Shown here: positions 15,788 through 61,989 of the stretch, in pieces
Numbering within the stretch: the first letter of the stretch is position 1
Layout: each line of letters starts with the position of its first letter
Assembly: GCA_022801715.1 (NCBI GenBank)
Contig: JAAWSV010000002.1
Coordinates: 1-64,000, forward strand
DNA: 64,000 bases
Reading direction: 5' to 3'
Origin: Oscillospiraceae bacterium
GTDB taxonomy: Bacteria > Bacillota > Clostridia > Oscillospirales > Oscillospiraceae
The notes under the pieces: model-generated
Database searches by the model: none
The model's input: the letters and a program-made list of their open reading frames with translations, nothing else
Told to the model about the DNA's origin: nothing
Made by a program: the position numbers and the translations under genes

Positions 15788-16341
15788 TGAAGGACGAGTA
15801 TAAGGTATTCGAGGATAAGATGAAAAAGACCTTGGATTCTGTGGCCGCGGACTTTGGCGCCGTGCGCGCGGGGCGGGCCAACGCCGCTGTGCTGGACCGG
15901 ATCATGGTCAACTACTACGGCACCCCCACCCCCATCCAGCAGATCGCCTCCATCGGCTCACCGGACCCCCGGTCCCTGGTGATCACCCCGTGGGACGCCT
16001 CGGCGGTGAAGGCCATTGAGAAGGCCATTCAGGAGTCGGATTTGGGCATCAATCCCGCCAATGACGGCAAGTGCCTGCGCCTGCTCTTCCCCCAGCTGAC
16101 AGAGGAGCGCCGCAAGGAGCTTACCAAGCTCATTGCCAAGTACGCCGAGGGCGGCAAGGTGGCCATCCGCAACATCCGCCGGGATGCCATGGACAAGTTC
16201 AAGAAGATGGAGAAGGGCGGCGAGATGACCGAGGACGATCTGAAGATCGCCGAGAAGGACATCCAGAAGCTCACCGACGAGATGATCAAGAAGGTGGATG
16301 AGCTGTACGCGGTGAAGGAGAAGGAGCTTTTGGAGGTATAA
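15784..16341 (+). CDS. frr: Ribosome recycling factor
   Basis: [31 protein letters not shown]. Confidence 0.97.
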
Positions 16342-16344
16342 TTT

Positions 16345-16575
16345 TTCGTTTGAAATCTGCGGATTTCAAACAAATTGGGGGTTGCGCTGCGCTCTGCGCC
16401 TCGGACTTTGCCCCGTGGGGGCAAAGTCCTGCGACGCTCGCTTCGCGAGAGGGATTTTTCCCGAAAACGCGGTTTCCGGGAAAAATGATTTTGGATTTTT
16501 TGCGGCGTGCGCGCCGCAAACTCCTGCGGAGGGCTTTGGCTGTGGGCGGGGACCTTGTCCCCGCTCACAGCTAAG
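16345..16575 (+). repeat. Intergenic multi-hairpin element, copy B (most complete)
   Basis: Stems 16349-16357/16362-16370, 16403-16414/16418-16429, core 16454-16468/16472-16486, 16499-16507/16512-16520, 16539-16553/16557-16571. Confidence 0.85.
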
Positions 16576-25679: not shown

Positions 25680-25915
25680 CGCGTGAAATCTGCAAATTTC
25701 ACGCGAGGGGGGAATAGGGATTTCGTTTGAAATCCTTGGATTTCAAACGAGGATTTGATTTACGGGGAGCTTTTTTTCGGGAAGCGCCGGGGCGATTCCC
25801 GAAAAAAAGGTTCAAACCGAGTGCGGTTTGCAGGGTGTTTTTCCGAAAATGCGGTTTCCGGAAAAACGATTTTAGTTTATTTCGCGCCGCAGGCGCGAAA
25901 CTCTGCCGAGGGCTT
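25680..25915 (+). repeat. Intergenic multi-hairpin element, copy C (5' hairpin duplicated)
   Basis: GCGTGAAAT/ATTTCACGC, TCGTTTGAAATCC/GGATTTCAAACGA, TTTTTTTCGGGAA/TTCCCGAAAAAAA, core 25837-25850/25854-25867, TTTCGCGCC/GGCGCGAAA 25880-25900. Confidence 0.85.
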
Positions 25916-46009: not shown

Positions 46010-46200
46010 TCAAAAAAATGCAGGCATTTTTTTGAGCGGGGAATGGCGCTGCGCTCTGCGCCTCGCCTATGCCCCTCCCGTGGGGAGGGACATAGGTTCG
46101 ACGCTCGCTCCGCGTAAAGTATTTTTTCCGAGGACGCGGTCCCCGGAAAAAATGATTTTAGTTCATTTGCGGCGTGCGCGCCACAAACCCTTAGGGTGCG
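46010..46200 (+). repeat. Intergenic multi-hairpin element, copy D
   Basis: TCAAAAAAATGC/GCATTTTTTTGA, CCTATG-CCCCTCCC/GGGAGGG-A-CATAGG, core 46121-46135/46139-46153, TTTGCGGCG/CGCCACAAA 46166-46187. Confidence 0.85.
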
Positions 46201-61291: not shown

Positions 61292-61744
61292 ATGGTCAGA
61301 AGCACTGCCAGAGAGATTGCCGTCCATCTGTCCTACGAGCTCAGCTTCGCCGGTGTGCCGGCGGATGAGGTGCTGGAGCGCCACCTGTCGGCGGAGAATT
61401 TTGCCTCCCTGGCCGGTGAGGACGAGGTGTACCAAGAGACGCCCAAGGGCAAGCAGCGGGAGTATATCACCCGCTTGGTCACAGGCGTGGACCAGCACGC
61501 TTTTGAGCTGGACAGCTATATTGAGAAGTACGCCAAGGGCTGGCGCTTCGCCCGAATGCCCTTGGTGGCCACGGCCATCATGCGGGTGGCTATGTATGAG
61601 ATGCTCTACATGGAGGATATCCCCACCGGCGTGGCGATCAACGAGGCGGTGGAGCTGTGCAAGAAGTACGAGAGCGACGAGGTGGTCAAGTTCGTCAACG
61701 GACTTCTTGGCACCTTCGCCAAGGAAGAAATCAAATCCACTTAG
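61292..61744 (+). CDS. nusB: Transcription antitermination factor NusB
   Basis: RSTAREIAVHLSYELSF, RMPLVATAIMRVAMYEMLYMEDIPTGVAINEAVELCKKY, NGLLGTF. Confidence 0.95.
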   Translation: MVRSTAREIAVHLSYELSFAGVPADEVLERHLSAENFASLAGEDEVYQETPKGKQREYITRLVTGVDQHAFELDSYIEKYAKGWRFARMPLVATAIMRVAMYEMLYMEDIPTGVAINEAVELCKKYESDEVVKFVNGLLGTFAKEEIKST

Positions 61745-61784
61745 AGAAGGCACCGCCTTTCTAAGCGGAGAGGGGACCAAGCCC

Positions 61785-61922
61785 AGCGCGGCTTGCCGCA
61801 GTGTTGAGAAAATGTGCCGCCGGTTCATTTTCAGCGCAGACCCCGACAGCTGTGCTGGCGGGGTCGTACTGGGTAAAGCAGTACGATGGTATTTGCGCAG
61901 TCGGCGCAAACTCGGCGAGGGT
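61785..61922 (+). repeat. Intergenic multi-hairpin element, divergent copy E
   Basis: GCGGC-TT-GCCGC, GACCCCG/CGGGGTC, CGTACTG/CAGTACG, TTTGCGC-AGTCG-GCGCAAA (61892-61910) then CTCGGCGAGGG, matching the 3' module of A-D. Confidence 0.55.
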
Positions 61923-61989
61923 TTCGGGGCCTGCGGAGCGTACATGGTGCGCTCTTTTTTCTTAGGGTATCGAGAGGGGGACAGGCTTT

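Follow-up and report, generated by a model that had tools for sequence, protein, structure and literature searches.

Between the genes frr and uppS, the window (the whole 64-kb stretch of DNA analysed here) carries a row of hairpins at positions 16342–16575 of the + strand, starting at most 6 nt from the frr stop codon (ORF end at 16341). This copy of a repeated element, called copy B, begins with hairpin P1 (16348–16371, GTTTGAAATC-TGCG-GATTTCAAAC, 10 bp). The P2 region (16380–16449) comes next and contains a variable hairpin, P2b (16403–16429, 12 bp), and a small hairpin (16437–16449). Hairpin P3 (16454–16486) holds the conserved core and is made of T-run and A-run arms forming about 14 bp with one A.C mismatch, followed by 2 bp and a 7-nt loop. 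The series is completed by P4 (16499–16520, TTTGCGGCG-TGCG-CGCCGCAAA, 9 bp), by P5 with the conserved 3′ end (16521–16534, CTCCTGCGGAGGGC) and by a site-specific 3′ hairpin, P6 (16539–16572, 15–18 bp). Five hairpins in series had been described here from the sequence alone, and the region does fold in this way: the minimum free energy of 16345–16575 is −126.4 kcal/mol, vs. −87.5 ± 4.9 kcal/mol for dinucleotide shuffles (z = −7.9). The pattern of an intrinsic terminator (a GC stem and then a U-run) is not found in P3 and P4, where T-runs precede the stem and A-runs come after it. Copy B as a whole has one weak terminator-like match, for 1.3 expected.

The core CCGARRACGCGGTYYCCGG is found exactly at 119, 16461, and 46128 and with one mismatch at 25843. 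These three exact matches and single one-mismatch match of the window are all on the + strand; when up to three mismatches are allowed, 11 matches are obtained for 3.9 ± 2.0 expected. The general order of the parts is P1, P2 (with the variable hairpin P2b), GAAGTATTTTT, P3, ATGATTTnAATTTnTTT, P4, and CTCTGCCGAGGGC, often followed by another site-specific hairpin. Two interchangeable versions of the interval separating P1 from P3 occur: copies B and D carry type I, and copy C carries type II. Bit scores given here are those of a covariance model, R1, built on the P3-P4 half of the element. Copy A (61–195, +) is truncated at its 5′ side and devoid of P1; it has P2, P3 (112–144), P4 (157–180), and the 3′ end CTCTGCCGAGGGC (match at 107–191, 81.4 bits). 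Copy B reaches 92.1 bits. Copy C (25680–25914, +, 92.7 bits) has two P1 hairpins (25680–25706 and 25724–25749), the type II P2 hairpins (25770–25809 and 25813–25830), P3 (25837–25867), and P4 (25880–25900). Copy D (46010–46198, +, 87.7 bits) consists of P1 (46010–46034), P2b (46066–46097), P3 (46121–46154), and P4 (46167–46187).

The sequence-only reading had also placed the same ordered architecture, in diverged form, near the end of the window. This part of the claim has to be revised, while the recurrence itself holds for the four clear copies, with the two P1-P3 forms and the missing P1 of copy A. Copy E (61740–61925, +) is a type II remnant, in which P1 (61740–61765), a P2′ fragment, P4 (61892–61910), and CTCGGCGAGGG remain and a second repeat family (about 61796–61888) has taken the place of the P3 region, as judged from comparison with loci L015, L020, L034, L035, and L046. 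This second repeat (CCGCAGYGTTRAGAAAATGTGCC...) is unrelated to the element and is also present within the same five loci and L027. It belongs to a multi-hairpin family organized as CCGCAGCGTTAAGAAAATGTGCC-hairpin-GGCACATTTTTAGCGTAGGCCCCGCC-hairpin, whose members are repeatedly found inserted into the first element, at its P3 or P4.

Distribution of the Element

In the host genome (2.77 Mb, 113 contigs), R1 gives 84 matches, of which 14 are antisense echoes of the same sites, leaving about 70 sites. The core pattern has 35 exact and 15 one-mismatch matches there, a few of the latter being unrelated. Alongside the main family, a divergent subfamily is present (L124–L128 and L130–L134), whose two ends bear AAAGGGGG...CCCCCTTTRGATNCCCC hairpins and whose P3 loop is AGCGCGGT. 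A relative that is about 95% identical, G475, has about 75 copies.

The covariance-model search that had been suggested as a check finds the element well beyond the host. R1 matches occur in 105 of 201 genomes and 70 of 106 genera of Oscillospiraceae, spread over rumen and gut members, and within the order Oscillospirales many copies are present in two other families, represented by genus g112 (second family) and genus g203 (third family); in both genera the copies retain the core almost letter for letter. When 85,462 species were scanned for an exact pattern, matches came solely from Oscillospiraceae/Clostridia metagenome-assembled genomes, many of them ruminant-derived. The window copy had no match in plasmid and phage collections. 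When a full-length copy from genus g67 was used as a query, it matched the cultured Vescimonas fastidiosa and, weakly, two human faecal phage records that lack annotation, MT836333.1 (H2) and MT838656.1 (H3), in which the similarity is confined to the middle third of the query, at 79–82% identity.

Across genera, P3 keeps a recognizable signature: an N.C mismatch that is nearly always A.C (107 A.C, 5 T.C, and 2 C.C), two pairs, and a loop usually of 7 nt (for example, CACATGT, CGCATGT, TACACGC, or ACGCGGT). Comparison with Rfam gave no gathering-level match in the window and nothing relevant at the E-value threshold either, which rules out a known RNA family. Literature searches, whose coverage of subscription journals was mostly missing, returned no description of the element. 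The family is uncatalogued in that neither Rfam nor the searched literature contains it.

Genomic Context and Orientation

The single direction noticed for the copies of the window extends to the host genome, in which gene calls rest on a codon score rather than on pipeline annotation. Of 42 copies scored, 39 have an upstream flank that codes in the same direction as the element (p = 6e-9). Neighboring copies on contigs C16, C28, C43, C54, and C74 change orientation together with the gene strand, and opposite-strand neighbors, each sense to its own gene, can be as close as 2.5 kb (C16) or 7 kb (C54). Such flips between neighboring copies rule out an orientation set by the replication strand, of the IS200/IS605 type. 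Of 37 copies, 20 have a P1 that starts 0–7 nt past the stop codon, and another nine have a TGA at P1 as their first in-frame stop. At L012, L014, L020, L034, and other loci, the upstream predicted frame has no stop until the TGA inside P1; hence, these frames may take their stop codon from the element.

In Vescimonas, an annotated 150 kb contains 14 copies, all of them intergenic: five lie between convergent genes, five are sense, three antisense, and one lies between divergent genes. Orientation to genes, non-random in the host genome, is weak here; strict sense orientation is therefore lineage-specific. The record NZ_AP023416.1 (L261–L263), an 861-kb Vescimonas fastidiosa sequence called a plasmid, contains genes for ribosomal proteins as well as tuf, secA, and dnaB and has for this reason the appearance of a chromosome-type replicon.

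The sense orientation that tracks gene strand and the close spacing to stop codons are what would be expected of a functional RNA of 3′ untranslated or intercistronic regions, whose hairpins would protect, process, or attenuate the mRNA and whose covariation would result from selection on the fold. The three of eight Vescimonas copies that are antisense between co-directional genes argue against such an RNA, as do the many copies outside the host that are located 3′ of a terminator-like hairpin, where poor transcription is expected.

Covariation of the Stems

Strong stem covariation is normally taken as proof of RNA function. The claim that complementarity is kept despite differing stems is borne out, and the covariation proposed for checking is strong. 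Indeed, in 57 copies, 97.6% of the pair cells are standard pairs and 130 double changes are counted, vs. 32.5 ± 4.2 in shuffles and 13–21 in slid controls, with one-sided changes nearly absent. The covariation itself suits an RNA, whereas the near absence of one-sided changes does not. Selection on an RNA fold is also expected to tolerate G-U and not A-C. A symmetric finder applied to P1, P2b, and P4 (about 3,010 pairs) gave 2,886 Watson-Crick pairs, 28 G.T, and 50 A.C. The tRNAs of the same genome, a control somewhat biased since the ARAGORN model favors G-U, gave 38 G.T and no A.C in 543 pairs (Fisher p = 6e-13 for the contrast). Since the stem mismatches of the element show no G-U excess over A-C, pairing appears to be kept by a process that makes no distinction between the two strands. 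Stem pairing is thus probably maintained at the DNA level and not through RNA selection. The arms could change and yet stay complementary via template-switch correction (a repair mechanism treated in PMC8794818), via gene conversion between copies, or via selection for DNA hairpins. Loop inversion was considered as a template-switch signature and dropped as support, with one clear pair only, in P4 (L024 vs. L025/L031).

One observation counts against upkeep at the DNA level. On the sense strand, UNCG-type tetraloops far outnumber their reverse complements (30 to 0 in P4 and 20 to 1 in P1/P2), as an RNA would have it; inheritance of an ancestral loop by shared descent could account for this excess as well. 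Conservation across families of the P3 loop and of the single-stranded linkers, together with the conserved UGCG loops, would also suit an RNA, whereas the arms and loops of P1 and P2b are largely arbitrary from genus to genus and Rfam holds no match. Taken together, an RNA role accounts above all for the sense bias seen in a single lineage; it is otherwise unsupported, and we regard it as unlikely. Strong covariation is here not by itself evidence of RNA function. As covariation can arise without a G-U signature, a strand-aware test of G-U vs. A-C should accompany covariation claims.

Comparison of Orthologous Sites

Roughly 34 sites were compared between G475 and the host genome, and nearly all of them are occupied in both. 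At one, the element is present in G475 (L059) and the host site is cleanly empty (L183), with CATATTGATAAACCTCC and AGTGTTAAAGG directly joined; this pair shows no target duplication longer than 1–2 bp. A second absence is found in the host, L074 of G475 being missing at L185. Insertion polymorphism at orthologous sites, one of the marks of miniature inverted-repeat transposable elements (MITEs), is therefore observed. Many of the shared sites have also been rebuilt. That of copy D (L006/L194) carries type I in the window and type II in G475. L192 (G475:C14:33000-34000) has a tandem triplication of element units, with a single copy at the host site; P3 is lost at L190, and the 3′ half is replaced by the second repeat at L188.

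At L195 (G000:C15:700-2800), a type II copy is interrupted between its two P1 hairpins by about 1.4 kb containing hypothetical reading frames, and this insert is absent from the G475 orthologue L084. No transposase was recognized when the 1.4-kb insert and partial copies were inspected by eye for an autonomous version. Insertion sites conserved across genera, which would be a sign of site-specific function, were also considered: one site shared with the host genome (L021/L070) was found among about 45–60 sampled, which by our own estimate is about what chance would give.

Ends of the Element and Flanking Duplications

In other genera, including Vescimonas fastidiosa, copies are about 200–290 bp long and have imperfect inverted-repeat ends. 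These are AGCGTGTCGAAAA...TTTTTTGACAGTCT in g67 and its relatives and AGACTGTCGAAAA...TTTTTTGACACGCT in Vescimonas, where the element is 198 bp long. Both ends are found close to the element in 8 of 44 copies, vs. an average of 0.015 in shuffles. Terminal inverted repeats are not seen in the window's own copies, and this MITE feature characterizes part of the family only.

Sixteen copies in other genera sit between near-identical 25–38 bp copies of the site's own hairpin, which is usually terminator-like. A first scan found 8 of 58 copies scoring at least 20. Seven of these are counted (L147, L153, L154, L169, L172, L174, and L178); the eighth, L054, was left out as a repeat of an element-type hairpin. 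L181 was found separately. Four of 20 further copies (L241, L247, L256, and L258) are flanked in this way, with 0 of 200 in the mismatched-pair control, as are four of 14 in Vescimonas fastidiosa (L261:33388, L262:45465, L262:41400, and L263:39832), with 0 of 182 in the control. L173 is a weaker case. The duplication is seen in none of the 78 copies of the species pair formed by the host and G475.

Two sites are informative about the origin of these repeats. At L178, the duplicated stretch is part of the hairpin only, and at Vescimonas L261:33388, located between co-directional genes, the duplication runs past the hairpin into non-palindromic sequence. Both fit a target duplication and not two independent terminators. 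At most inspected junctions, the duplications are directly outside the inverted-repeat ends. Alternatively, the terminators would have been doubled by local duplication or gene conversion, the element lying between them by chance. Several flanked copies are indeed between convergent genes, hairpins in these genomes clearly duplicate and convert, and at L154 and Vescimonas L262:45465 the second hairpin carries an inverted loop, a feature not expected from simple target duplication. However, the position of the repeats relative to the ends, in several genera, together with L178 and L261:33388, makes this account quite improbable. No element-free orthologue was found for any terminator-flanked copy.

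Search for a Mobilizing Enzyme

Mobilization by a Y1 (RAYT) transposase was examined in the host and 36 other genomes. Y1_Tnp (PF01797) has no match in the host genome, nor in any of the four high-copy genomes tested in the second family. Genus g43 has a single RAYT-like Y1 transposase gene, of 244–246 aa (L231:1432-2166; L232:142-882), which in L231 is flanked by its own AAAATGAGTCAA/TTGACTCATTTT hairpins, unrelated to the element. The row of hairpins, the conserved stem mismatch, the strand-oriented copies, and the lack of evident terminal repeats in the window's lineage would suit a REP/RAYT-like or IS200/IS605-like element moved as single-stranded DNA, but with these enzyme searches, with orientation flipping along gene strand within 2.5–7 kb rather than simply following replication, and with inverted-repeat ends and long duplications that are not IS200/IS605 features, such an origin is highly improbable. 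No autonomous element with the same ends was found in 150 kb of Vescimonas or in the 8-kb loci, and these searches identified no transposase for the element.

A Model for the Element

The sequence-only reading had left a choice between an RNA-level role and an oriented, non-autonomous mobile repeat. The first is not supported, as the stems have no G-U excess and many copies elsewhere follow terminator-like hairpins or are antisense to flanking genes; the empty site, dispersal, inverted-repeat ends, and flanking duplications favor the second. We consider it probable that the element represents a MITE-like family of non-autonomous mobile elements, having no ORF and a fixed hairpin series, which insert at the ends of genes and duplicate a long target encompassing the terminator. 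This reading accounts for dispersal, polymorphism, inverted-repeat ends, and flanking duplications together. An enzyme acting in trans would recognize the ends or the conserved P3 hairpin, and insertion would occur at gene 3′ ends, at or just past terminators, with duplication of a long target including the terminator. In the lineage of the window, the ends may have been remodeled, and insertions would no longer leave a recognizable duplication. The sense bias of 39 of 42 copies requires further explanation beyond mobility; sense copies abutting stop codons may be those that persist.

More tentatively, with chances that we place a little short of even, the family may be one of transposons that insert at intrinsic terminators and duplicate the whole terminator, leaving one to each flanking gene. 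Since both genes would keep a terminator, insertion would be nearly harmless, and copies could build up to very high numbers at the ends of genes throughout a bacterial family.

Relationship to Known Repeats

The BOX, RUP, and SPRITE repeats of Streptococcus pneumoniae (PMC3049150) resemble the element in being small, modular, highly folded, intergenic, and of high copy number, as well as in slow insertion, many shared sites, and clustering with other repeats; their authors judged them parasitic. BOX and RUP have terminal repeats like those of known insertion sequences (IS) and demonstrated target duplications, whereas no mobilizing IS is known for the element. The element also differs in its freely replaced arms, in its range of at least a bacterial family, and in some 25–38 bp flanking duplications with a terminator-like hairpin. 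With MITEs (for example, MITEAba12, PMC6382973), it shares a short length, the absence of an ORF, inverted-repeat ends, flanking direct repeats, and folding; the very long duplication, the terminator-side placement, the ordered array of four to six hairpins with the P3 motif, and the fact that no parent IS was identified set it apart from MITEs in general.

Unusually long target duplications, of 16–28 bp, are made by the IS1202 long-duplication subgroup, for which the same study found no target preference (PMC10132070); the flanking duplications of the element measure 25–38 bp. The outer ends of IS1202 are 5′-TGT...ACA-3′ (PMC10132070), whereas the TGTC...GACA of the element is near the ends and not outermost, with about five more bases before the duplication. 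No relationship between the element and this subgroup is claimed. REP/BIME sequences and their RAYT (PMC2817692, PMC3733652) are, like the element, dispersed extragenic palindromes. In contrast, the element is a far longer multi-hairpin unit, the GTAG/CGTC tag was not noted in it, and its host genome is devoid of Y1 transposase. Finally, mobile hairpin repeats of mitochondria (for example, sponge RHE, PMC2800124) are likewise repetitive, hairpin-forming, and thought to be mobile, and they differ in being organellar.

The element is an abundant repeat (about 70 copies here and 14 per 150 kb in Vescimonas) of a common gut and rumen family, unlisted in Rfam. The cultured host Vescimonas fastidiosa MM35 makes it experimentally testable. 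If terminator duplication is true, it would name terminators as the target choice of an element with long target duplications and would provide a route by which a mobile element makes its own insertion nearly harmless.
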